Source: Epinephelus fuscoguttatus (lineage: Eukaryota; Chordata; Actinopteri; Perciformes; Serranidae). Taken from it: a DNA stretch of 64,000 nt. This document shows positions 13,266 to 39,070 of this stretch, one piece after another (position 1 is the first letter of the stretch; the number at the start of each line of letters is the position of its first letter). The DNA is taken from the NCBI RefSeq assembly GCF_011397635.1, contig NC_064761.1:30049643-30113642 (forward strand), in the 5' to 3' direction. A program made the position numbers and the translations under genes. The notes below the pieces were generated by a model. It worked only from the letters and a program-made list of their open reading frames with translations. It was not told the origin of the DNA and searched no databases.

Positions 13266-16200
13266 TTATATCCCCGAGCACCCTTCATGTTCTATCCTTC
13301 CGTCTGCTGCCACAGGCAGGATGAGGTGAGAAATACGACTCCACAGTCCACCGTACTTGTCAATGTCCATCTTGTCAAAAGATACTGGATATTCATCAGA
13401 GAGGAACTTCTTCTGAAGATGGTCGTCCACCATCTCCTCCACAGTACTCAAACGAGTCTCGGCAGGAATCTCCTCCTCCTCCCCCAGCAGTACTGTGAAG
13501 ATCAGACAAGTTTTCTTATAGGCAGCATTCTCATGGTCACAGTAGCGGTAAAAAATAAGGGTGGAGCCCGGAGGCAGCTCCTCGAAGCGGTTAATGACAG
13601 CCACAGGTTTATCTCCTTCGAAAGCTCCCTGCAACTTGCTGTCGATGTCCAGTTTGACCTGGTCGCTGTCCTGGCTGGCTTTGCTGGCCCCATCGATGTG
13701 GAGGACGGAGGCGTTGAGGGCAGAAGAGAAGGCGGAGGCCAGGCTCTGAGCCAGGCAGTGCAGTGTCTTCTCGGCTCTGTGGCCTGCAGTCAGGATCAGA
13801 CTGACTGGCTCTGTGGGATGGGCTGTCTGGAGGTGCCTCAGCAGGTGAATCTTGCTCCTGTTCCAGAGCTCAGCACGCTGGTTAGGAAACTGAGTCTTAA
13901 CTTTTTCCAGCTGCCTGAGGAAGATGTCTATTTGCCGCACGTCGTCCTTCTGAGGTGGAGACTCGGGTTGGAAGAGAGGTGACATCAGGATGGCAACTAA
14001 TACCAGTACACCTGCTAGCAGGTACATACCATTTCCTATGGAGAGAAAGCACATGTGTTGTCTCAACCTGTATTTTATCAGTACTATATAATGCCCAGTT
14101 TACACTGACTCCTGATCACAAGACAGCAAGCTGCGTAGTGTGAACAGTATGGCGATCTGACAACTTTGAACATCTGCAGTGTGAACTTAGCGTAAGTCAT
14201 TTATGACTGTGTATTAAGTAACACAACACTCAGTGTTAGAGATCAGCCTTTTTAAATGACCATCACTGAGCCGCTTTGGTCATTTGTTTAGCTAGTAACT
14301 ATCATGACACAAAAAAGAAACAACAGAAGACAAACCAGACTAAAAGAACAACATTACCTCCAAGAGCTCTTTGAACCACTGGAACTGCAGGTTCGGCATC
14401 AGCGGCCTCCTGAATGGTAGGGCCAATTGTTTCAACACGTGTCTGTGCCTGTGGGAAGGATATTCTCTCCTCTTCTTCCTCAGGAGCTACAACCTCCTCT
14501 GGACAGCTTCCATCTTCTGATCATTGGGAGAGAAAAACAGGTTAACTCAAACTAATCTAAAGAGACACTCCAACCACTGGAAGCCACTTGTGCAGCTGCA
14601 TGTTCGTGCTCCCTCACTGGCTTCCCACTACGGCTGTCAAAATGGGTCAAAAATAATCTTCATATATGTTAGAGTATATTTAAATACCTATTCTTACACA
14701 TTATGTCCATATGTGTGTGGATGGAGTAGGTGGATGGTGTTGTCATGGAAACGTAATGGCCCTCCTGTTTCGCCTCCCCCAGGCCAACAACATTGGCTCT
14801 GTCAGCACTGTTTGCGCTGTTAGCACTGTTAGCTGCTAGCCACTGGCACCTCCATGCTGAGGGAAGCATCTAATCCCGGCTCAGACTCTGAATCATAGAT
14901 TGGTCTGAATGTGATACATACCATCTTCAGTTTAATTTTACTGTATAAAGAACTACATTCAATGCTGAGTGAACTGCGCTGTGTGTACTGTTTATAGCTT
15001 CAAAAAGCATGTTCTTTTTTGTCCACAAAGGGGCACTCTTAGTTTCTTGTTATAGTATGGGGCACTGTTGGTTTTGCGGTTGCATGCATGCTGCTTAGGG
15101 GAAAGGTGACTGTGGTACTCTGAAGTTCAGTAGACCACTAAACTCCAGAGGTTGACAGCAACAGTAGTGTGTTTTTTTTAACACAATAAAATAATAATTT
15201 TCATAATCTAATTTTCTACTTTTTTGTACTATTCGAATACATTTTCGAATTTTGAATAATTGTTGACAGCGCTACTTTTCCACCAGTGGACACTACTTAA
15301 GACTGAAACTCGAAAAAAAATTCCAGTCATTGAAATTTCAGAAAAGTCACACTCACCCTCTTCAGCCTCAGCATTTGTGTTGTCAGTGTCTGGGATTTCT
15401 TTATCAGGTCCATCTACTCGGTCACTTCTGTCACCCAGGGTTGGTGAGCTGGTTGTTTCTGGTTCTTTCTCCTCCCCAGTGCGATGCCCTCCTGAAAACA
15501 ATACAACAGTTTAACTTCCACAGCAGCTCAAGCATCACTGTCTCTACAGTTACATTTTAGATGGGATTTAAAAATTTCCAGTGCAATAAGAGTTGCCTTT
15601 ATAATCTCACAGAATTAAAGGATAGGTTCACGATTTTTAAGTCCATTTTATAACAATACTAACGTATGTCCACATGTACATAGAAACAGTTGTTGGTCAA
15701 GCTAATTCTTCCTCCATTTCATACTAGAAATGGAGAGATTCCTTTTTAAAATTATTCCAGTGTAAGTGATCGGGGAGTGTTTGGAGTAAAAATGACTTCT
15801 CAAGTCTGGCTAAAGCTAAAACGAGGCTTCAGCAGTCTTGAGTTGGCCAAATTAAGAAAGTATTAAGAAAGTTGCGTTTCCTTGCTGAGCTGCAGTGGAG
15901 GGATAGCAACACAGAGAGGGAATTTTGCACTAAAAAAAGGGCACAAGAGCATTATTCTACAACAGACTTGAAAAAATTTGAACCTACGCTTTGACAAAAA
16001 ACTGTGCGCTTGTACAAGGCAAAAAGGAATTTCTGCAACTGAGCAGTATTTGTGGTGTTGATGGCAACATTTCTATATAGAGATGATATTTTACAGTGAA
16101 TGCAATGACATGATGGAAGCCTCATCTCATTGCACAGAACCAACACATCACACACACAACATAAAGTATGCAGTAAATCGACTTTTACACAACACAGTAA

Positions 16201-19411: not shown

Positions 19412-22400
19412 ATGGATTCCAGGGTTTCTGAAAAAGAGGCGTCTCGCCCGTTGAGACGATCAGCAAGGCATTCTTCCGGTAATGTTAAAGGTGAGCAAAG
19501 TGACTATGGCTAAATTAAATTAGCTTAGCTATTGTAGCCCTCGAAGCTAGCTGACTGAAGCTCACTCAGAGTTTAACGACAAAGCTCCTTCAGTTTCAGT
19601 TTTAACTTACTTTGGCTGATTTTATCCGTGTTGACTAGAAAATTACAAATGAGCAAATGCGATTTAACGTTACGTCCTTGAAGGAGTTCTTTGGCATTTT
19701 ATTCATTATCAAAAGTTGATGACATAAAACCACCAACTTGATAACCGTTACGTTACCTCTGCTTGTCTCAGTATTGAGTTATGAACCGACCCCCAGGGGT
19801 CCCCTAAAGAGGACCAGAAAGAGGACAGAAAACCAAGCTCCTGCTGCAGCTGTCAATGGTTCCAGAGACGTGGAGGATGGCTCAGAGGATGAAGGTGGGC
19901 TGCTTAAAGGTACCATATTATTTTTATTTTCAGTTTCAAATTCATTTAGTTTTAAACTAGAAGTATTCATGCTTTAATGTTTAACAAATACTTTTTTTCT
20001 ATTGCTGTTTGCCTGAATATACCCGTATTGACCCCCTGTCGTAAAAACAACCTTTTAGCGGCTGTTTCTTTAAACCTATTTCCCCCCAAATAAACCCAAT
20101 CTGCTCTGACATGACAGTGTTTCAGAGTCTTCCACATCTGCGCTTTCAGTGTCTCTACAGTGTCACTGCAGCGATACTGTAGTGGCTATAGACATATATA
20201 CGTAGACACCGCATCGAGTGGGTTTGCCCGCTGCTGCGATACGTCAACGTCGCCGCCATATTAGATGTGGCAAGGCTGCGCTGTAAACTAATAAAAGTGG
20301 ATGGACTTAATTTCATAAAGCGCCTTTCTACAAAGAAATTTACGTTAATGCCTCTCGTTTATTCATTCACACACACACTAATATACTTGGGAAACAGGCA
20401 GCAAAAACAATGTATTTGATCTTCTCAGATGGCTAAGAACTTTATTGATCCCACACAGGAGTAATTCACCTTACATCAGCTATAGAGAACAATGTAGTGC
20501 CGAAAAACAATACACAGTATATACTGTGTTATATACTGTGTATTTTTTCGGCACTACATATATATATATATGTATATATATTTATATACCATCTGTACCC
20601 GCTCTATATGGAGAAAAAAAACAACCCTGGAAATCTGACTTTTTACAACATAGGACCGTTAAATTAACAGTATATACCTAGTTAACCCTCAGACTGTACT
20701 ATTCAGGTGTAAAAATACTTTTTATCTCTCACTTAACAGAGTCCCCTAGCAAGAAGAGTCGGCTGGGGACTGGAGGAGCAGCGGGCGACAGTGGGGATGA
20801 GAATGACATGGAATCAGTTGGAGATTTGGAGGAAAATGAAGATCAGGAAATGGATTTTATACAGGATTCCTCTCATGGCACTGAGCAACCAGAAATATGC
20901 CAAGGTTAGGGTTGCAAGTAATTAATATTTTGGATATTCGTTAGCGCCTTGCCCATTTTATTTCTATCATTCATCTAATGAATTCTTTAAAAACTGTCAG
21001 TTGTTCACAATATAGATGTATATCATTGAAAATTATATAAAATTCAAACAGGCAGCAAAGTCTCACACTTACGAAGATGTAATAGCCGAATGTGGCTTTT
21101 TTGCTTGACAAATGGCTTATAAGATTAACTGGTTATCAAAATTGTTGATACATGTTTGCATGATCAACTAACCAGTTAATTGCCTTATTGTTTCAGCATG
21201 AGCCAAAATGTTATCAGTGATGTGTATGTCCACCAAAGCAGATGCTATTAAATGAATGATTACTTAACTAATAATTATCTATGCATGCAAGTGCTTTCTA
21301 ATGTGGCATCTCTGTGTAGTCTGATCATTTAACTGTGAGTTAACTTATCTTTGATTGATTGGATTTCTTGCTGCCATTAGATCTGATCACAGGCAGTTTA
21401 GTGGTTTTATTTAAATCAAGGTTTTCCCTCTGTATAAATCAGGCGCCCTTGGAGATGTGAATTTATCCCCACGAGTCGTCCTCGGTGAGCGCTGCAGACC
21501 CTGTCATGCTGTAAATGAAGATGCAGACTGGATGAAAACAGTGAGAGGTAGGAGAAGGCTCTATCTTTTGTCTGCATGGGAGTGATTACATCAAGAGAGG
21601 ATAACACAGTCGTTCTAATCTGGTTTGCTTGTTTTCAGTAAAACCATTAACAAAAGGACCAGTAGCCCCCACCAAGACTGCCACACAAATCAGACCTCCG
21701 GCAAACAGACATGACATGCCGATCCCTAAGGTCACCAGCATGGCTGACTTCAAGAAAACAATGGAGGCCAAAGCCAGGAGCACTGGTATTGTTTTTTCAT
21801 TTTGGCAGATTTCTAGCGCCCCCACTTTTGTCAAGAAAATTGCACTGGGCATCTTCACCCTCAGTGGATTTACATTTCTAAAAATGATCATATCTTTACA
21901 TCAGTAAATTCTGCCTCACTTTTAGGTATACCGTCATTTAACCACTATGTCCCAAGTGCGTATCCAGCCTCGGAGAAACCCTACACAACGCGACAACGTG
22001 TGAATAACATTCCAACAGAAAAAGAAACTGTTAAGCCCAAAAAACAAGGTATTCCAGCTTCAACTGAATAATTCAGTCATTAGCAACATCTAATGTAGCT
22101 GTGACGTGTTTGACATTGATTTAATGAGATTTTTTTCTTTTGCAAGGGGTAAAGAAAACGCCAGTTGCAAAGACAAGCTCTGGGTATTCCTGTAGAGGTA
22201 AGCTATAGTATTTTAATTACATTATCTTTGAACCCAAAGATGCTTATTCTACATGTGTTGCAATTCTACATTTGAATATCGCCTTGTGTCTTTCCAGGAG
22301 TCATATGGTGTTTATGGCGTTTGATTCTCCTGGTGCTGTTCTGTTCTGCCGTGTTGCTGGCATACAAGATAAAAAAGACTGCAGACAGTAGAAAGTTTCC

Positions 22401-23070
22401 ATCCGGGGCTGTAAAATCTGAAAGGTTTGCAGATCAGTTGTCTCTTCTTGAGGCCCAGTTCCCAAATCAGCGGCCTGTTTTGTGGAAGAGGAGCAGGATC
22501 CACCTGGAGAAGCACCTCCAGACAGCCCAGCCCTCAGAGCCAGTCAGTCTGATCTTTACTGCAGGGCGGGGGGCTGAGAGGACGCTGCGCTGCCTGGCTC
22601 GGGGGCTGGCCTCCTCCTTCTCCGCTGCCCTCAACGCCTCTGTCCTCCACATCGATGGAGCCAGTAAAGCCAGCCAGGGCAGCGATGAGGTGAAGCTGGA
22701 CATCGACAGCCAGTTGCGAGCGGCTTTTGACGGTGACAAACCCGTGGCTGTTATTCATCGCTTCGAAGAGCTGCCTCCAGGCTCCACCCTCATTTTTTAT
22801 CGCTACTGTGACCACGAGAACGCCGCATACAAGCAGGTGTTTTTGTTGTTTACTGTGCTACTTCCTCAAGATGAGATCAAGGTTGATCAGAATCTGAAGC
22901 AAGTGGAGGAGTTGGTGCAAGACTATCTCAAGGAAAGGCTGGTGGACTCCAGCAGCCAGATTGCCTTCAATGAGATGGACATTGACAAGTTTGGTGGACT
23001 GTGGAGCCGCATCTCCCATCTTATTTTACCTGTGGTGTTGGAGAAGGAAGTAGAGCATAAAGGATGCTGA
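19412..23070 (+). CDS. tor1aip1: Torsin-1A-interacting protein 1 (LAP1-like)
   Basis: Inner-nuclear-membrane protein, torsin activator and lamina-associated polypeptide. Eight coding exons agree in phase: 19412-19490, 19772-19894 (a second donor at 19909 would add 5 aa), 20740-20904, 21443-21547, 21639-21785, 21926-22048, 22147-22197 and 22298-23070; about 1566 nt, 521 aa, near human LAP1 (583). The start MDSRVSEKEASRPLRRSARH gives an Arg-rich nucleoplasmic N terminus, followed by acidic and basic low-complexity stretches, one membrane segment (about 267-290, WCLWRLILLVLFCSAVLLAY) and the luminal activator domain with FPNQRPVLWKRSRIHLEKHL, LHIDGASKASQGSDEVKLDI, LPPGSTLIFYRYCDHENAAY and FGGLWSRISHLILPVV. 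The LWSR arginine and both conserved Cys (YCDHE and the terminal GC) are present. All internal introns are phase 1. The luminal domain, encoded by one exon, is clearly paralogous to that of the divergent neighbour. Confidence 0.92.
20494..20557. repeat. Near-perfect short palindrome
   Basis: GTAGTGCCGAAAAACAATAC at 20494 is mirrored by GTATTTTTTCGGCACTAC ending at 20557, with ACAGTATATA-type inner arms. The arms are about 28-30 bases with one small indel and a loop of a few bases. It lies in intron 2 of tor1aip1 next to a short TA run. Confidence 0.7.
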
Positions 23071-27659: not shown

Positions 27660-30600
27660 CTAATTTTCCTGACACCAAAATATCCCGACAGTGACAGCGA
27701 CAGCGAAACATGTGGCTCCAAAGAAGAAGAGGGCAGAAGCAGCAGAAAAAATCTTTTCGGCTGCACTGGGCTTCTTCTGAAATTCAGAGGTGCAGTGGAG
27801 ATGAAACACATTTTTACTGTAGCGCATGAATTGCGCATGAAATAAAACATTTATTTATTAATGTTATGTCATGTCGTGTTATGTCATGATGTGGACAGAC
27901 TCACCTTTTTTCTTTGTTGCCTCCAGCTCTCACTGCTTTTTAGACTCCCTGCAACAGGAAATGGTGACAAATATTGTTTTGTTCTTCATAAGAATCTATA
28001 CTGTATTATATTATCATTTATGTTCACACAGTGCTATACAAGTCATTCACCTGTTTTGTTTCTTCCCAGTATTGTGTTTCTGAGAATACATCTTATGATA
28101 ACCCAAATTACAAACAGGACCATCCACACTGTGAAGGCGATCGTCACTTTCACAAGCCAGGAATCTTTCCTCTTCTTTCCACAGCTGTCATTGTCCAAAA
28201 CACTAACAACGATGACAGCAACTGTGTGTGAAACAGATTTAGAAATGAGAGCACTGAAGTGGCAACAGCAGTTTGCCTATTTGAAGAGATGTTGCCAGCT
28301 GTGACATCGATTAGCTTGACCTATTTTAAGGCAGTAGTTCAACATTTTGGGCGATGTGCATCTTTGCATTCTTGTTGAGATTTAAATGAGAAGAAACCAC
28401 TCTCATATCTGTCTGGTAAATATGTGGCTACAGCCAGCAGCTGGTTAGCTTAGCATTAGCCTAAAGAGTGAAAAGTGAGGGAGTTCTGTCCATGCGCTAG
28501 CACTAATTAACATGTTATATCGGATTTGCTTAATTCATATAAAACTAGTCCATACCAATTGGCAGCTTTGTCACCTTCTACCTATGCCAATCCTCAATCC
28601 CTATGTGCAGTTTCACATAGATTGACCACGTCAGTGAGTAGAAAAACGTGGGACAGACAGAATGACTGACTGACAGAATGATACACTGACAGTTTCCGTG
28701 ATTATACCATGACTTAGTCATACCAAAAATTAGAAAAAAACAACAACATTTGGCCACAGGGGGAGCCACAGCGATCGATCGCATTTTAGCCATTTGTAAG
28801 CATTTTTCTGTTGTTATAGCGCCACCCAGTTGCCAATTAGAGTTACATTTCTCCAGTCACCTTGAGGCGTCCTGTTCTACATATCTACCAAGTTTAGTAA
28901 AAATCGATATGGCGGTTAGGCCTAGGTAAGAAATTAGCTCTCTAGCGCCCCCATTTTGTTTGATGGGGTCAATAATGGAGGGGTCCCCTCAGATTATGTG
29001 TGGTCATATGCCTACAAGGTTGCGTGGTGATGGGTGAAACCCTTGAGATGTTATACACCTTTATGTGATGAGCCACGCCCTCCGCAATATTCATTGGCTT
29101 ATAGAAGCTTAGTTTCAGTAAGTTTTCCAACTTTTGCCAAGAGGGAACTTTAGATATTGGTCCCTAGATTACGTTCACTGAGTTTCATGCAGATCGGTCA
29201 AACTTCCTAGGAAGAGATCGATTTTAAGTTTTTTTTCCAAAATTTCAAAATGGCGGAAAATCTATATAACCAGAAGTTATGGGTTCTTGAGGCAAATTTG
29301 TTCCTCATGAGGAGAGGCATCTCTGTGCAAAGTTTCATGTCTCTACGACATACGGGGCATGGGATATGCCCATTCAAAGTTTGCAATTTCAATCAGTTGC
29401 TATAGCGCCCCCCTTTGGCCAATTGATGTAATATTGCTTCATTCGCATCCTCCCATGGCCCTCTACCACTGTGCCAAATTTCACATGGATTGACCAAGTC
29501 AGTGAGGAGAAAAACGTGGAACACACACACAGACACACACACACACAGACAGAGTTTTCGTCATTATATAGTAAGATAAAATTACAAAGCAAAAGAGTTC
29601 ATAACTGATGTTTAAAGCCACTTGTTATATATCTTGTCAACATGGCATTAAAATGAATTTAGAAGTCAGCCGTGCAAAATAACTCAAAATATTTCCCGGA
29701 GCATCAAAGTGAAAATGAATGTGGAAATACTGCAACATCATCAGTGCTGTGCTGATAAACAAGGAACTTACAGCGAGTTTAACGAGTAGCTAAATGACCG
29801 ATAGATGTGCTTCAGTAACTTGGCGGAGGTTTGGTAACTGGGTGAGTCATCGACCTGAATGTGGACATAGCTGAAGGTTGCTCCTTTCCAAGGAATCATA
29901 AAACTAATAATCATTTATGAAGCATGCCTTGTGGACACTAACATGACTGTACAGACAGAGTTTTCATCATTATATAGTAAGATCAGCAGTGTTTAACAAC
30001 AAACTGTTAATAAATAAGTTTCAGGGGTGCTGGTAGGATGATTCTGTTACCTTCGGACAGAGCCAGGCTAACTGCTTCCCACTATTTCCTGTCTTTGTGC
30101 TAAGCTAAGCTAACTGGCTGCTGGCTGTAGCCATTAGACAGAAGGCAGTGAGAAGGAGAGCGCATGTCCACGCAAACTATGAAATGTCCTTAACTCTCAG
30201 CAAGAATGCAAATAAGTGTATTTCTCAAAATGTCAAACTATTCCTTCAAAGACTTTGAGTCTTCTCACAGAGAGAAGTCAGGAGTTAAGTTTACTCAAAT
30301 GCTTAAAATCAATTTCCTTACTTGTAAAAATGCTATGGATGACAGAGCACGCTTCGACTATAATGTCTGAGATCTCCTTCCTTGAACAGTACAAAAGAGA
30401 AATAAAAACAGTTCTGTGAAAAGTGCTGATGTAAGGGTCACTTCAAATGTTCAAGCAGAGGAAGAGGAGGGTTTTTTGTGATCAGTTGTTTATTGTTTGT
30501 ATATAGGAAGGAAAGCACCATACAAGTGACAAAAGGTGAAGCGTAATACCACAGTTCCCCACCATTTCCCCTGTTCTTCTTCAACTAACCCACTCCACCC

Positions 30601-33600
30601 TCACGCTCTATGCCAGGGGTGTCAAACATATTGCTCGTGGCCCAGAACCAGCCCGCCAAAGGGTCCAATCCGGCTACTAGATGACTAGACTAAGAGGTGC
30701 CAGGTTTCAGCAGCAAGTTCAACAATGTGTTGCCTGCTTCATGTGAAATTCTGCTTCAGAGGCTTTTCCACTCCTACCAGAACACAGCTCTCTGATGTAA
30801 CAATGAATACTTACTGTGACCATATTTAAAGATTTTAAACATTGTGCAAAATATTGTCAATCAGCAGCTTCAGTTTAAAACAATCTGTATCAGGAAATGT
30901 ATGGCCATGTAATGACAGTGAGAAGTGGACTCACTGAATGTGGAAAAACTGAGACACACTGTTGAAATTGCACATATTTTTCTTAAGACATCTCAGACTG
31001 TTCGTCTGTTGTGTAATATACTTGTAATTCTTTACACAAAAAAGGGAAAACATTAGAGCTGATGTTACTTATACTGTGGGTTATTGTGCGGTGGTTTTTA
31101 TTGGTCAGTCCCATCTAAGAGATGAACTAGAATGAGTTTGACACACCTGCTCTATGCCCTGCTATGGTGAACCAAAGTACACATGAAGCAGAAGAAAAGT
31201 GTGTGCACACAAAAACACACACAAAAAACCCTCCACCAAAACAAAACAGTACAACCCACCCATTCCTTACAACCCCCCCTCTGTGCTGCTGCAGAAAGCC
31301 CATGACCACTATCGACATAAACCAACAGCATTTAGACACAAAAGATTCACATTGAGGCGGCACGATGGTGTGGTGGTTAGCACTCTCGCCTCACAGCAAG
31401 AGGGTTGCCGGTTCGATCCCGGGCGTGGGAGCCCTTCTGTGCGGAGTTTGCATGTTCTCCCCGTGTCAGCGTGGGTTCTCCCCGGGCACTCCGGCTTCCT
31501 CCCACAGTCCAAAGACATGCAGATTGGGGACTAGGTTAATTGGTGACTCTAAATTGTCCGTAGGTGTGAATGTGAGTGTGAATGGTTGTTTGTCTCTGTG
31601 TGTCAGCCCTGCGATAGTCTGGCGACCTGTCCAGGGTGTACCCTGCCTCTCGCCCGATGTAGCTGGGATAGGCTCCAGCCCCCCCGCGACCCTCAAGAGG
31701 ATGAAGCGGTTAGAAGAAGAAGAAGATTCACATTGTTGTGCTGATTTCCTCCTTAATCCCTACTGCACGTATTAAAGTATGTATAAATATTTCAATCGAG
31801 TAAACAGCAAAGCAAGCAAGTGAAAATGCATAAGAGCATGACTGAAAAAGCCAGTTAACCACAAATATTTACAGTAAAACACTTCTTTCACATTTTCTCT
31901 GGTATCTTCTAGGTATTGGTCAAAGCTACAAGACGGAGAAGAAGTTGTACTTACAGTTCATGACTGGGTCCAATTGGCAGACAGACGATTACCAGCTCCA
32001 CGAAATTTATCACTATCGTCACACACACAAGAACAAGGAGAATGACCTAAACATGCCCACACACACACACACACACACACAGTTATTTCACACACACATC
32101 GAATATAACCTCTTGTAATACAAACATTTGGATAGAAATACAGATTTGTACACTACCTATTTACTTACTTTAATGGGCTCAGCCAAACAAAACAAGACCA
32201 GGGCCGATATCTCAATTGCTGTACAAAGCAGACAGGATGATATCTTTAACCCCTACAAAACAAATAAAGTGTCAGCCATCTTAATAACTCCAAATAATTA
32301 GTATTGATTTTGTGTTTTTGATTTTAAAGGCACAGACACATAAGCAAATGACACTGACTGAGCCTATGAATGCCTTAGAGCAGTGGTTCCCAACTGGTGG
32401 GTCGCGGTCCAAAAGTGGGTTGTGGGTCCATTCTGAATGGACCCTCTTTACACTAAAGAAACCCTATTTATTATATCTAATTTCTTTTAATATATCCACT
32501 GAAATCTCACACACTTTTTAATTCTGTAATTACCTCTCCATATAATTTTAATTGTTAGTAGCGGGGTCTGCCATTTCAGCACCAGATTCAAATTACCTTC
32601 CTATGCATGAGGGAGTCACAGGAAACATTACGAGACTGCGGGATGATGACAACCAAAAACAGTCACAACAGCAGCACAAGTTCTCCAACTCATGCCTTAC
32701 CTTATTTGGATGAGAACAGAGGCTGTTAACGAGGGTGGTCATGGTCATTAACATAGTAGGTAGTTCCTGATAAGAGAGAGAGAAATGAAAATGAATAATC
32801 TGGCTTTTTTTTTTTGGCAGGACTATGTGTAATGACATCTACTGGGTGTGACATGAGTTTTTAAATACCGTACCATTCTGAGTAGCACCAGCACGCTTCT
32901 GAAATTCATCACTGAAGTACCTACTCCCTGAAGAAGTTAAGAGACACATTAAAGAGTTGTGTAAATAAAGATGTTGAAGTTTATATATTAATGCATAGAT
33001 TTGGCGCAATGTCAAAAATAAATCAATCAAGTTCGCTTTTGCGTCCGTCCTTACCTTAAATAGGTCTAAAAGTCCGGGCCTTTGAGTGGTCGTGCTTGGT
33101 CCTGCAGTAGTTAGATTTATAGTATTAGAATCAGGCTCACTTGTACTACTTGATGTTGTAGTACTTACAGCAGTACTTGGCATTGTAGTACCTCTTGTAG
33201 TACTTGGCTTTGTAGTCTCTGTTGTAGTACTTGGTGTTGTAGTCTCTTTTGTAGTACTTGGCATTGTAGTCTCTTTTGTAGTACTTGGCGTTGTAGTCTC
33301 TGTTGTAGTACTTGGTGTTGTAGTCTCTTTTGTAGTACTTGGCATTGTAGTCTCTGTTGTAGTACCTGGTGTTGTATTTTTTATTGTAGTCATTGGTGTT
33401 GTGTCATCCGGTAAGGGTGTGGTGGGTGAAGGTAAAGTGACATTAAATATCGCCACATTCCAGAATCTGCTGAAAGACTCAACAAATGTGACTCTGAAAC
33501 ATATCAGACAGGCACAGATGTTAATGTCAATCATTTTGCTCTGGAGAGTATAGTAATTTTGACTTTTGGAGGTCAGTCAAAGCGTATGAATACCTAAAAT

Positions 33601-34781
33601 CGATATCTGTGATGTCTTGTCCGCCTGCCGTCCAGTTAACTTGAATCGAAGTCTTTCTTTGATTGTTTCTTTGAGAAACAGCCTGGCCCTGAGGAGAGAG
33701 ACACAAGTAAAGAAACATCCACATGAGGGCTCGATAAGGCTTTAATCTTCAATTTCCACTTCATGTTCGTTTCAAGAGTTTGAAAAATGAAGCCAGTACG
33801 GAAGTGCCGAAAACTGCAGTTTTTTGAATGCTTGCTAGAGGCAAGTTTATCCCCATAGACACCCATGTTATTAAAATGCCCAACTTTACAGCAGAAATAA
33901 ACACGTTTACAGCCTGATACAAAAGATTATGGTCTCTACATGTCATTTCACCCCATTTTATTAAGACTTAAAGCTATGCGTAATTAAAGGTAGACCACTT
34001 TTGATAACAGGCTGTGTGCCAATAGTTTCCTCAATTTCTCAGTCAGATCCACCCCTTGCTCATCCACAGCTCAATCCTTTTGCCCAGATATGGTCACCTC
34101 TGGCTCCCAAAACTAACCAAGATGGCGACGGCCAGATTGTCAAACTCGAGGCTTCAAAATGGGTGTCCACAAACCAATGGGTGACGTCAATTAAAATCGT
34201 TGATTAAAATAGAAATGAGAAATGTGAATCTTCAACTAATCAATTCAATGCGCATTTATTACCTCTAATCATTTTGAAATGGAATGGTTACTTACTGGTA
34301 TATTATGGCATTTCAGGAGTCGAGTCTTATCAGATTCAAGCAAGATGAAATTTCCAACAGGATGTTCTGTGCCGTACGTCCAAGCCTCCAACATAAACCC
34401 CCTGAACTCTGCAGATTGATTTCTTTTGAGAGTCACTGGACAATGGTTTTAAGGTTCATTAGTGCGACACGATGGGACAGAAAATAAAGACAGATATTAG
34501 TAATAACCTTGCACTTGGTGAATAACCACCGCAACAAAGACTGATAAACAAGCTTTCAAGAAAAGGGATCCAGTAGTCTCTTTACCTTTGATAGGGTCTC
34601 CCTTTTGGCTGTAGGTTAAAGTCATCGTAAAGGGCAGTTCAGTGTTCTGAGGCACATATTGCACCCCATCTCTACTCCTGTGGTTAACGAACATATTTCC
34701 ACATGAATCTGGGAAGAAACCACTTGCGTACCCATGCACTTTTGTGACGACGTTAAGACCAATCAAAATCCACAACCACAT
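27660..34781 (-). CDS. Reeler-domain, mucin-stalk, multi-pass membrane protein
   Basis: Twelve coding exons join with matching phases: 34586-34781, 34296-34435, 33594-33688, 33055-33493, 32874-32927, 32701-32766, 32169-32252, 31955-32046, 30322-30380, 28051-28221, 27905-27948 and 27660-27776; about 518 aa. Residues 1-17 are a signal peptide; 18 to about 160 a Reeler domain (YASGFFPDSCGNMF, EFRGFMLEAWTYG, KTRLLKCHNIP, SIQVNWTAGG, FRVTFVESFSRFWN; Cys27 and Cys108 are likely paired). About 165-285 is a Thr/Pro/Ser stalk of 9-residue repeats (ETTTPSTTT) plus NXT sites. From 290 to the end there are about five hydrophobic segments (near 333-354, 359-384, 394-416, 428-449, 488-512) and a basic loop near 470-485. 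A 5' UTR acceptor (TTTTACAG) abuts the ATG, so an upstream non-coding exon is expected. The Reeler part resembles ferric-chelate reductase 1 (FRRS1) proteins, but DOMON and cytochrome b561 with its haem histidines are absent. Function unknown. Confidence 0.8.
28541..29575 (+). repeat. Unnamed dispersed repeat, copy 2 (longest)
   Basis: Starts AAAACTAGTCCATACC and ends near a (CA)n run and GTCATTATATAGTAAGAT. It contains all blocks of the copies at 24967 and 36097. The TATAGCGCC motif occurs twice and the TTTCACATGGATTGACCA block appears near each end, so the element has internal direct-repeat structure. A shorter frame seen on the minus strand in copies 2 and 3 is not conserved well enough to be a gene. 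Confidence 0.8.
29890..29984. repeat. Repeat block shared with 25.7 kb
   Basis: AAACTAATAATCATTTATGAAGC followed by GCCTTGTGGACACTAAC occurs here and at about 25687-25732. It ends with the TCATTATATAGTAAGATCA block that also ends copy 2 of the dispersed repeat. It is probably part of the same mobile family. Confidence 0.55.
31355..31722 (+). mobile_element. tRNA-derived SINE with target-site duplication
   Basis: tRNA-like head with an A-box-like GTGGTTAGCACTCTCGCC and a B-box GGTTCGATCCC, then a conserved body (GGAGTTTGCATGTTCTCCCC, CTTCCTCCCACAGTCCAAAG) and a 3' end (GATAGGCTCCAGCC, GAAGCGGTTAGAAGAAG). The 13-base AAGATTCACATTG flanks it at 31342-31354 and 31723-31735, proving insertion by target-primed retroposition. 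It lies in intron 8 of the Reeler gene, opposite in orientation to that gene. It looks whole and fairly young. Confidence 0.88.
32054..32082. repeat. (CA)n microsatellite
   Basis: Short CA dinucleotide run in intron 7 of the Reeler gene, just upstream of exon 8 on the minus strand. Confidence 0.8.
32378..32450 (+). mobile_element. hAT-like terminal fragment
   Basis: CAGTGGTTCCCAACTGGTGG followed by GTCGCGGTCCAAAAGTGGG and GGGTCCATTCTGAATGGACC. It matches, partly in inverse orientation, the fragment at 12475-12766. Only one end is clear. Confidence 0.5.
33160..33390 (-). repeat. 27-bp coding minisatellite (mucin stalk)
   Basis: Within exon 4 of the Reeler gene, a unit of about 27 bases (plus-strand core TTGTAGTACTTGG then TGTAGTCTCT) repeats about eight times and encodes a 9-residue Thr-rich unit such as ETTTPSTTT. 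It is a likely site of length variation between individuals. Confidence 0.85.
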
Positions 34782-36096
34782 CTGTAAAACAAAATGTCTT
34801 TCTTCATTAACATGCAGTCACTGGGGATTAATACCTGGGGATGGTGACATCATAATATATACTGAAGTCTCCCAATTTTTAAACAATGCAGTACAGAGCA
34901 ACAATCCCCATACTCTTCATCCAATATACATGTAAACACTGTAAGATTAAAGTCAGCTCTTCAACCTTGTAGCCATTGTGCAATTGCAAATGCAGTTTGC
35001 TAGAATAAAGAGTCAACAATTCATTTCTTTTTGAAATAAAAAAAAACATTTAAACAGTATGAGGCCTAAAGTTAGTTTAGCATTTAGAGATCTCTCTCAC
35101 TGTTTTGATCAAATTCACACTTGGCTTTATGGTGCTGTAAGACCTCACTGGTAAATAATTAACAATATACCCATAGTGACAACTCCTTTTCTCTTACCTT
35201 AAAATATTTGTATACAGTGTCCCATATCATGAAACCACAAGTTAAGATGTCATACAACCAAAGACGCTCAGAACTTTCTGGTTAAGTCTCTAGAAAAGTA
35301 AAGAAATCTTAGGAATGTCTCTGAAGAAAGGGATCCTGCCTCCTGGACAGTCCGGCATGTAGTGTGTGTTAGAGAGAGCAACATAACACCTCAGCAGAAA
35401 GAAGGAGGAAGTTAGAAAGGGCAATCTAAGTGCACGGCTTGAACCCACCCACTGGACAGCTAAATTATAAAGAAAATACAGCTTCCCTTTGCTGCGGCTT
35501 AGACCTGTGTCTCAGAATATTCTCAGGGTTTGAGGGTTTCCCAACAGCATCCAGGTTCTTCAAATGCTCTGGTCTAAAACTACTGCAATCACTCCACACA
35601 GCACAGATCCGAGTCTGCAGTGCTGGGGGAACAGCTGTTGCTTGATGAATGCATCAAATCAAAATAACTGTGAATTCAAAATCAATCCATAATGACACAG
35701 AGAAGTGCTGTTAGCTTCTTTCCTTGGAACGTAATGTAGAATATGCATGTGCTTTGAATTTAAATGTCTATTTAAACAGCCAGGACGTTTTTGTATTTTT
35801 AAGATTTCATCTGTATTTTGCAGTATTGTTTCAGTCAGTCAATCAGTCGATCAGACTTAATTCAACACAAAGTGCTTCACACAATAATACAATAAAACGC
35901 TAGGGGAAGGGGACAGGAAAGGGAAGAAGCTACAGGGCCCTGAAATGCAGCACCTCCAGACTGAGGAACAGTTTTTAACCTACAGCTAATCCTTTTTATA
36001 GCACCTTATTTATCATATTTATCGCATTTTAATGTGTGGGTATGTGAGTGTGTGTTTGGGCAGAGTGAATGGAACAGTTTTTTCTTTTATTAGAGT
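34782..36096. other. Reeler-gene upstream region, no further gene
   Basis: Should contain a non-coding first exon and the promoter of the minus-strand Reeler gene, because the coding start directly follows a splice acceptor. A weak repeat tail is seen at about 35838-35930 (CAATCAGTCGATCAGACTTA then CAAAGTGCTTCACACAATAA). No other coding exon was recognised. Confidence 0.45.
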
Positions 36097-37183: not shown

Positions 37184-38194
37184 CTAGTACAATGATCCAC
37201 GTGAGAAGTTTTGCATTTTAACCTGCTGTTCTTCAACTGCACTTTGGCGAATGAACATTCGCTGCAGCAGAGACTTCAAATGACTCCTAAACTTCACACC
37301 AACAAATGCATAAAAGACAGGATTCAGACAGCAGTGGGAGAAAGCAATGAGCCGGCACACATAGAACGCATAGTCGAGGTCTATACTTGCATCACAGTCA
37401 TCAAATGGTGCAACCAAATTGTCAGCCATGATCCTCAGAAAGATGACCACATTGTACGGCACCCAGCCGAGGAAGAACACAGCAACGATGCAGAAGACCA
37501 ACTTCACTGCTCTGTTCTTTGTGTGAGATCTTGTTCTTGTGATTCTCCTTAGTATTTGAATGTAGCAGAAAGCCATCACTGTAAAAGCAACCAAGAAGAA
37601 AATATTCTGTTGGGAGATACTGATGTTTTTCCACAGGGTAGAATCATATTCACAGCCCAGGGACTGTGAACCATTGTGGGGAATTGAGACCAGAGAGCTG
37701 TGGAGCAGGGAAGGCATGGCTGCTCCAATGCTGATTATCCACAGTAGGAAAGACACAAAAATCCCAGTGCTGAGTTTTGGTGTGCTCAGGTCAGACAGAG
37801 GGTGGACTACGGCCAGATACCTGTAGATGGTCATGATGGTCAGGAAGAGGATGCTGCTGTAAAATCCAGTGAAGAAGACAAAAGTGACAACTTTGCAGAG
37901 GGCCTCTGAAAACAGCCATCCCCAGATGTGGTAAATTGCCCAGAAGGGGAGACCGATGGTGAAGACGAGGTCAGAGATGGCCAGGTTTAGGATGAAAGTG
38001 TTGGTGAGAGACTTGAGGTTTTCATACATAGCCAGGATTACAAGGACGAGGATGTTTCCCATGAGACTTAGCATGATCACAACAAAGAAGAACACAGGAA
38101 TGAAAATGGATCCAAATTTGACCACCTCAGCTTTTTCGCAGACTTCATCCTCATAGTCAGTGTCATACTGGCTTTCATTGAAAGAGTAATTCAT
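37184..38194 (-). CDS. xcr1: Chemokine receptor, XCR1-like (class A GPCR)
   Basis: Single-exon coding region, 336 aa, the usual size for the family; couples extracellular chemokine binding to G proteins at the plasma membrane. Seven membrane segments are visible. Acidic, Tyr-containing N terminus (YDTDYEDE, possible sulfation) with Cys19; TM1 with GN (MGNILVLVIL); TM2 NLAISDLVF; ECL1 WGWLF; Cys100 and Cys181 for the TM3-ECL2 disulfide; TM6 FFLGWVPYNVV; TM7 NPVFY at 291-295; Ser-rich tail. The DRY position reads YRY (124-126). A changed first residue (HRY) is a trait of mammalian XCR1, and together with fyco1 as neighbour this supports XCR1 rather than CCR or CXCR. The acceptor just upstream of the ATG and a donor at about 38379 show the usual two-exon layout with a non-coding first exon. 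Teleosts have several xcr1 copies; which one is unclear. Confidence 0.85.
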   Translation of the reverse strand: MNYSFNESQYDTDYEDEVCEKAEVVKFGSIFIPVFFFVVIMLSLMGNILVLVILAMYENLKSLTNTFILNLAISDLVFTIGLPFWAIYHIWGWLFSEALCKVVTFVFFTGFYSSILFLTIMTIYRYLAVVHPLSDLSTPKLSTGIFVSFLLWIISIGAAMPSLLHSSLVSIPHNGSQSLGCEYDSTLWKNISISQQNIFFLVAFTVMAFCYIQILRRITRTRSHTKNRAVKLVFCIVAVFFLGWVPYNVVIFLRIMADNLVAPFDDCDASIDLDYAFYVCRLIAFSHCCLNPVFYAFVGVKFRSHLKSLLQRMFIRQSAVEEQQVKMQNFSRGSLY

Positions 38195-39070
38195 TGCTGT
38201 TTAACTGGATCCTAGAAAAGGAAAATGGGATTAGTATATGCATTACTGTAGGTCACTTCTATTCATTTCATTGTTTTAGGCAAATCAACAGAGGAAAAAA
38301 AGAGTTATAACAATGAAAGTATTTTTCCAGAGAGGTTGCACTTAATGTGGAAAAAAAAAACGTAAAAAATGGACCTACCTCTTGCTTGATGGGACTGATA
38401 TGCTGCTGGATGTGACACCTTCTGTTAACTTAAGAGAGAGCTCGACAAGGAGTGGCTTTCATAACCCTGTGACAGATAATGATTTCTGTTCCTATTTCTG
38501 TTCCAATAGCCTGACCTTTCTGTCACAGCTCAGCTGAATTTGTTGATGTGGCTGTTTTTGTGGTCTGAGAACGGAAATTTTCAACTTTCTCATCAAAGAA
38601 AAAAAAAAGTTTAGATCAAGCAAAATATCAGGGTGTGTTCTGCCTTTTAGATTTCATGTTCACTTGAAGAACTTCGCCTAAATCAAATTCTTAATGGAAG
38701 ACACATTTGACATGACGGACTTTGGGGTCCTCCATCAGAAGATTTTGAGCATCAGACACTTAATTTTTTTGTGAATTTAAATGCACCAATTTGTGCCTTT
38801 TCTGCATCAAGGTGTTAAATGTCTTTAATTTTGTCAAAATAAAAATGCACAAGTTTTAAATACTAAGAGGGACATGTCTCAAAAAATGGGGAAGTTTAAG
38901 CAAACCACCTGCATGGCTGTATACCACTAGAGGTAAGGACAAGGATGGGTGTTTTGGTCTGTAGGATGAATCCACACACTTTAAGCGATGCATAATGAAA
39001 CATAAGAAATTAGATTTAAAAGGGGTACTCTAGCATCCCACATTTACCATAATGCAACCAATAGCATATT
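38195..39070. other. xcr1 5' UTR, intron and upstream region
   Basis: On the minus strand an acceptor (TTTTCTAG) lies a few bases before the ATG, and a GTAGGT donor abuts 38379, so the 5' UTR is split by an intron of about 165 bases. The region beyond holds the presumed promoter. No other gene was seen. Confidence 0.5.

Follow-up and report, generated by a model that had tools for sequence, protein, structure and literature searches.

A grouper gene joining a Reeler head and a threonine-rich stalk to a membrane module probably derived from an FRRS1-type cytochrome b561

The stretch of DNA analysed here (the window) comprises 64,000 nucleotides (nt) of Epinephelus fuscoguttatus (contig NC_064761.1, positions 30,049,643 to 30,113,642) and contains, on its minus strand, a gene for a protein with a Reeler domain, a stalk and a multi-pass membrane module, whose origin is the subject of this report. 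Rebuilt from the sequence, the gene consists of 12 exons from 34781 to 27660 that join in frame into 518 codons and a stop, with introns that are all GT-AG and have phases 1, 0, 2, 0, 0, 0, 0, 2, 1, 1 and 0; this independent rebuild agrees with a first-pass annotation of the window, which had proposed twelve phase-compatible exons and about 518 residues. The gene is annotated in E. fuscoguttatus as LOC125896339, an 'uncharacterized protein', whose isoform X1 (P0001, 499 residues) is 100% identical to our model across the membrane part and differs from it in having an extra 11-residue upstream exon and in splicing out a 90-base optional intron within exon 4. The coding start in isoform X1 is at 35230, correcting the 34781 of the first model. 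The features are listed below with their counterparts in an FRRS1-type gene on C15 of the same genome (the C15 gene), transmembrane helices being abbreviated as TM.

35198..35230, minus strand: upstream coding exon of isoform X1 (MIWDTVYKYFK), placed by locating the P0001 N terminus in the window, where it is followed by a GT donor.
34586..34781, minus strand: exon 1, signal peptide (judged by eye) and first part of the Reeler domain (Pfam), 196 nt, ends in phase 1; C15 gene 205 nt (from the ATG), same phase.
34296..34435, minus strand: exon 2 (140 nt), Reeler domain (Pfam), ends in phase 0, as does its counterpart in the C15 gene (143 nt).
33594..33688, minus strand: exon 3 (95 nt), Reeler domain (Pfam), ends in phase 2; length and phase are identical in the C15 gene.
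33055..33493, minus strand: exon 4, Reeler end and stalk of Thr-rich 9-residue repeats (repeat analysis), 439 nt, ends in phase 0; C15 gene Thr/Pro-rich linker exon, 151 nt, phase 2-0.
33102..33191, minus strand: optional 90-nt intron inside exon 4 (30 stalk residues), spliced out in isoform X1 (P0001 against the window model).
32874..32927, minus strand: exon 5, membrane-module helix 1 (first half), phase 0-0; no counterpart in the C15 gene by length and first phase.
32701..32766, minus strand: exon 6, remaining half of helix 1, phase 0-0 (gene model, predicted structure).
32169..32252, minus strand: exon 7, TM2 of the putative pseudo-b561, 84 nt, phase 0-0; C15 gene 87 nt, 0-0.
31955..32046, minus strand: exon 8 (92 nt, phase 0-2), TM3 with the conserved GPSHEL loop; C15 gene 98 nt, 0-2.
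30322..30380, minus strand: exon 9, first part of TM4 (TM4a), 59 nt, phase 2-1; C15 gene 59 nt, 2-1.
28051..28221, minus strand: exon 10, remainder of TM4 (TM4b) and TM5, 171 nt, phase 1-1; C15 gene 144 nt, 1-1, its donor weak.
27905..27948, minus strand: exon 11, part of the Lys/Arg-rich TM5-TM6 loop (gene model, P0001).
27660..27776, minus strand: exon 12, TM6, C terminus and stop (gene model, predicted structure).

Both extracellular features named in the first-pass annotation, an N-terminal Reeler domain and 9-residue Thr-rich repeats, were recovered. The Pfam Reeler domain (PF02014) spans residues 27-155 with an E value of 2.5e-24, and the stalk is encoded by a 27-base tandem repeat corresponding to 9 residues (8.6 copies, 87% matches), giving 54 Thr, 15 Ser and 16 Pro in 130 residues. 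Across 57 aligned sequences of the family stalk length varies between 0, seen in partial records, and 293 residues, while mean identity to P0001 is 0.458 for the membrane module (n=54) and 0.446 for the Reeler domain (n=47). From its composition the stalk is probably O-glycosylated. A Thr/Ser/Pro-rich tandem-repeat stalk is shared with transmembrane mucins; however, the Reeler domain alone scores above the Pfam cut-off in the window protein, with no SEA or EGF domain found, and a mucin crosses the membrane once, whereas the structure model of a relative of the window protein has six helices. In one record, P0091 of Dissostichus eleginoides, the annotated stalk is Asn/Tyr-rich (NYYKYYN repeats), as would come from reading the Thr repeats out of frame, and may be a frameshift or prediction error.

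Three protein searches listed 47, 67 and 78 proteins, 102 different ones in all. Setting aside the unnamed records P0065 and P0072, the labels outside fish were P0101 (snail, Reeler and DOMON) and P0102 (metagenome, Reeler), both matching through the Reeler domain. The membrane module was matched in 56 named species (counted by hand over the three listings), and the widest relative noted was Centroberyx (Beryciformes), although the search requires shared 5-residue words and more distant fishes could escape it. The species we recognised, Centroberyx among them, are presumably all acanthomorphs. In the grouper genome, where the search scores its best candidates only, 12 of the 14 listed matches were exons of this gene itself and the remaining pair had E values of 0.17 and 0.29, so that the gene is apparently single copy. 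The relatives carry record names such as mucin-3A-like, ferric-chelate reductase 1 and cell wall protein DAN4-like, and one from E. moara and one from Pungitius are named by NCBI 'reelin domain-containing protein 1-like' (REELD1), which may simply be the label of the best Reeler match; neither this label nor 'ferric-chelate reductase 1' was used as evidence.

It could be argued that the model fuses two genes, one for a secreted Reeler-mucin and one for a separate membrane protein, since nine of the 102 proteins have no Reeler domain (P0011, P0016, P0060, P0063, P0065, P0075, P0093, P0098 and P0099) and two, P0077 and P0100, lack the membrane module although Reeler domain and stalk are present. 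Most listed relatives, however, join both parts in one protein, the exons all lie on one strand with compatible phases and only 127 nt between the stalk exon and the first module exon, and the C15 gene has the identical order. A fusion of two genes is thus very improbable, and the single gene of Reeler and membrane exons in the first-pass annotation stands.

The membrane module had been described as about five hydrophobic segments of no recognised kind. A predicted structure of one relative, the one model on which the fold assignment rests, instead contains six helices in this part. Compared against the structures on the VIA list, its helix arrangement was like that of Dcytb (5zle) and cytochrome b561 (4o7g, 4o6y) over 162-166 residues, and the top match was a designed bundle. 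Pfam scans of the whole protein, of the module and of 11 family sequences with the stalk cut out found no b561 domain (PF03188) and nothing above cut-off in the membrane part, where MARVEL (E 0.0057, 1 of 11), DUF6350 (E 0.0084, 1 of 11) and weaker others were dismissed as chance; a MARVEL or tetraspan module was abandoned because the model has six helices. Sequence searches of the PDB yielded one integrase piece and weak matches to the Reeler domain of Spondin-1, and no b561.

The C15 gene is called FRRS1 here by its Reeler-DOMON-b561 architecture (joined pieces: Reeler E 2.5e-35, DOMON E 4.3e-19, b561 E 1.6e-4). Its intact b561 scores 22.4 bits, just below the Pfam cut-off of 23, and NCBIfam gave no match on its membrane part; with an intact domain this close to the Pfam threshold, it is understandable that a degenerate one would be missed. 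Built from 57 rows, a profile of the family's module scored TM1-TM5 of the C15 gene at 15.4 bits, a score reached by none of the 1,827 shuffles that were scored out of 2,000 made (best 6.5), while the reversed C15 sequence scored -0.1, an XCR1-like receptor -0.2 and its reversal 2.7 bits. Four grouper CYB561-type b561 pieces scored -1.0 to -2.4 (scored reversals -2.4 to 0.7), and since these fail to match the family profile the link is confined to the FRRS1-type gene. Local hhalign against the C15 gene gave a score of 33.3 (P 1.4e-4, probability 52%, 13% identity over 86 columns) that none of 200 shuffles attained (best 19.9), and the global alignment a probability of 32% (P 3.4e-4). For segments anchored on exons and compared with permutations, P was 0.016 for the TM4a exon alone and 0.00065 for TM3, and 0 of 20,000 permutations equalled TM4a with 10 further residues. 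The likeness to the b561 of the C15 gene is weak, yet exceeds the controls.

The gene structures can also be compared, with the reservation that the comparison is with one FRRS1-type gene of one genome, its last exons left out, and that its exon ends were called from splice signals and frame with the window gene known, and hence not blind. Both genes have three Reeler exons of similar lengths and identical phases (1, 0 and 2), followed by a fourth exon ending in phase 0 that encodes a short Thr/Pro linker in the C15 gene and the long repeat stalk in the window gene. The linker exon is followed by DOMON exons, of which none were found in the window gene, and from TM2 to TM5 the four exons again have identical phases (0-0, 0-2, 2-1 and 1-1). 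In the local alignment, which was built without intron information, the introns between exons 8 and 9 (phase 2) and between exons 9 and 10 (phase 1) coincide in codon and phase between the two genes; they are the only introns inside it, and random placement would give this coincidence about once in 33,000. The introns between exons 6 and 7 and between exons 7 and 8 share their phase and lie 2-3 codons apart in the global alignment. Another grouper Reeler gene, at C23:1724998-1725312, seems to read through the second Reeler intron, and this layout may thus not hold for every Reeler gene.

Some of these observations would also fit a membrane part that is an unrelated multi-pass module, exon-shuffled onto a Reeler domain, with a likeness to b561 that is only that of a generic helical bundle. 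The Pfam and PDB searches without a b561 match, the designed bundle as best VIA match and an hhalign probability of merely 52% point that way, and so do the two exons of helix 1, which the C15 gene leaves unexplained. Against this, the profile and hhalign scores exceed those of all scored shuffles, two introns share codon and phase in a sequence-only alignment, and both genes have a 59-nt exon of phase 2-1. We consider an unrelated module unlikely, and an origin of the window gene from an FRRS1-type gene very probable on these comparisons. The earlier statement that the membrane part is unrecognised hence holds for Pfam, where no family is above cut-off and the C terminus has no b561 match, and is superseded by the fold, the match of the family profile to the C15 gene and the intron phases; these also overturn the contrast with the FRRS1 group that had been drawn.

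The C15 gene retains the haem-ligand motifs MKMHG, VHRG, GVHPY and NWGHWG. In the window family, no His was found at the anchored places of the ligands in VHRG (0 of 49 sequences), GVHPY (0 of 55-57) and NWGHWG (0 of 57), in keeping with the first-pass observation that paired haem-ligand histidines are missing. His occurs two residues ahead of the fourth-ligand place in 7 of 57 sequences. The first ligand (MKMHG) sits in a C15 exon without a counterpart in the window gene, and helix 1 of the family has His in at most 3 of 56 sequences at any listed column. The DOMON domain was likewise absent from Pfam scans of the window protein and the 11 family sequences; the domains of the listed fish relatives were PF02014 alone, PF02014 with a G protein-coupled receptor (GPCR) domain, or none, and a search of the window with the DOMON peptides of the C15 gene found no credible remnant (best E 0.17, 14 residues).

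Other residues are retained: among 57 aligned sequences H368 is kept in 47, H385 (TM4) in 48 and C381 in 47, and the loop preceding TM2 has His in 19 of 54 and 14 of 55 sequences at two columns. Conceivably, the protein could still bind haem or a metal in an unusual way through H385, perhaps with C381 or a cytosolic His, and carry out some electron transfer. However, ligands 2-4 are without His throughout the alignment, the DOMON haem site is absent, inspection found no widely conserved His pair across two helices, and H385 is probably no haem ligand since it lies 7 residues beyond the anchored fourth-ligand place. A remaining haem protein is thus improbable, and the sequences suggest that b561 redox activity is quite likely lost.

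Two sets of annotated isoforms depart from the exons described above. Isoform X2 (P0029) departs after exon 8, its last 74 residues being read from a repeat at 31469-31690 on the minus strand that we take to resemble a short interspersed element; its tail is apparently an exonised mobile element, and the protein is cut short after TM3. Exon 7, the 84-nt TM2 exon, is skipped in isoforms annotated for E. lanceolatus (P0008) and for Channa argus (P0059), which would alter the membrane topology if translated. Directly upstream of the gene and on the same strand lies a receptor open reading frame (37184-38200, minus strand), presumably XCR1-like. A GPCR is annotated as fused to a relative of the window gene in Clinocottus (P0019), Lucifuga (P0044) and Lates japonicus (P0064), and the Echeneis record P0087 carries the xcr1 name; the window gene and xcr1 thus seem to remain neighbours. 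Two similar open reading frames in opposite orientation, at 13266-14099 (minus strand) and 22276-23070 (plus strand), which we assume to resemble torsin cofactors of the LAP1/LULL1 type, are likely a duplicated pair.

Taken together, we favour, with a probability of roughly 0.75, that the window gene is an FRRS1 paralogue turned into a redox-dead, mucin-stalked Reeler surface protein. With FRRS1/SDR2 (CYBDOM proteins: Reeler-DOMON-cytochrome b561) it shares the Reeler head, the intron phases across the Reeler, linker and TM2-TM5 exons (as seen in the C15 gene), six predicted helices and presumably the topology; it differs by the absence of DOMON and of His at ligands 2-4, with none common in TM1, by a linker grown into a long repeat stalk and by a helix 1 split over two exons. 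Unlike Dcytb and b561, the window protein has no haem ligands and carries an extracellular head and stalk, and by the aligned ranges its family lacks their first helix and has one extra C-terminal helix. An FRRS1-type ancestor would have kept its Reeler and membrane parts and lost DOMON and the haem ligands, while its linker exon expanded into the Thr-rich stalk. The product would cross the membrane six times with both termini extracellular, as in CYBDOM proteins, and without haem would have no ferric reductase activity. Drosophila CG6479, found by a b561 domain search, is described as lacking the conserved haem histidines (PMC10691727), a possible likeness to the window protein.

A surface role, as the first-pass annotation had suggested, stays our best guess, and a function in adhesion or recognition can be put forward tentatively. 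The presumably O-glycosylated stalk may keep the Reeler head off the membrane to bind partners or microbes, and conserved loops on the cytosolic side, GPSHELKE and the Lys/Arg-rich one ahead of TM6, may dock an intracellular partner. In shrimp, LvReelers are inhibitory to vibrios, and LvReeler3 is described as binding these bacteria (PMC12113285). The LvReelers share the Reeler domain with the window protein but are not described as membrane or stalk proteins in the abstract of that paper; microbe recognition by the window protein is, by analogy with them, at most a fair guess. More speculatively, and rather doubtfully, a ferric reductase gene may have been converted before the spiny-rayed radiation into a conserved non-enzymatic receptor, in which a haem-free b561 would serve as signalling or docking scaffold below a fast-changing mucin stalk, and which may regulate FRRS1 or be a mucosal pattern receptor beside xcr1.

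No paper on this fish gene family was among those listed in literature searches. The reading proposed here would explain a family that is widely annotated yet nameless and is currently carried under misleading names, among which the 'ferric reductase' label is probably wrong. It would also provide a clear case of a b561 fold retained after apparent loss of haem, and the retained fold would permit a direct test of b561 roles beyond moving electrons.
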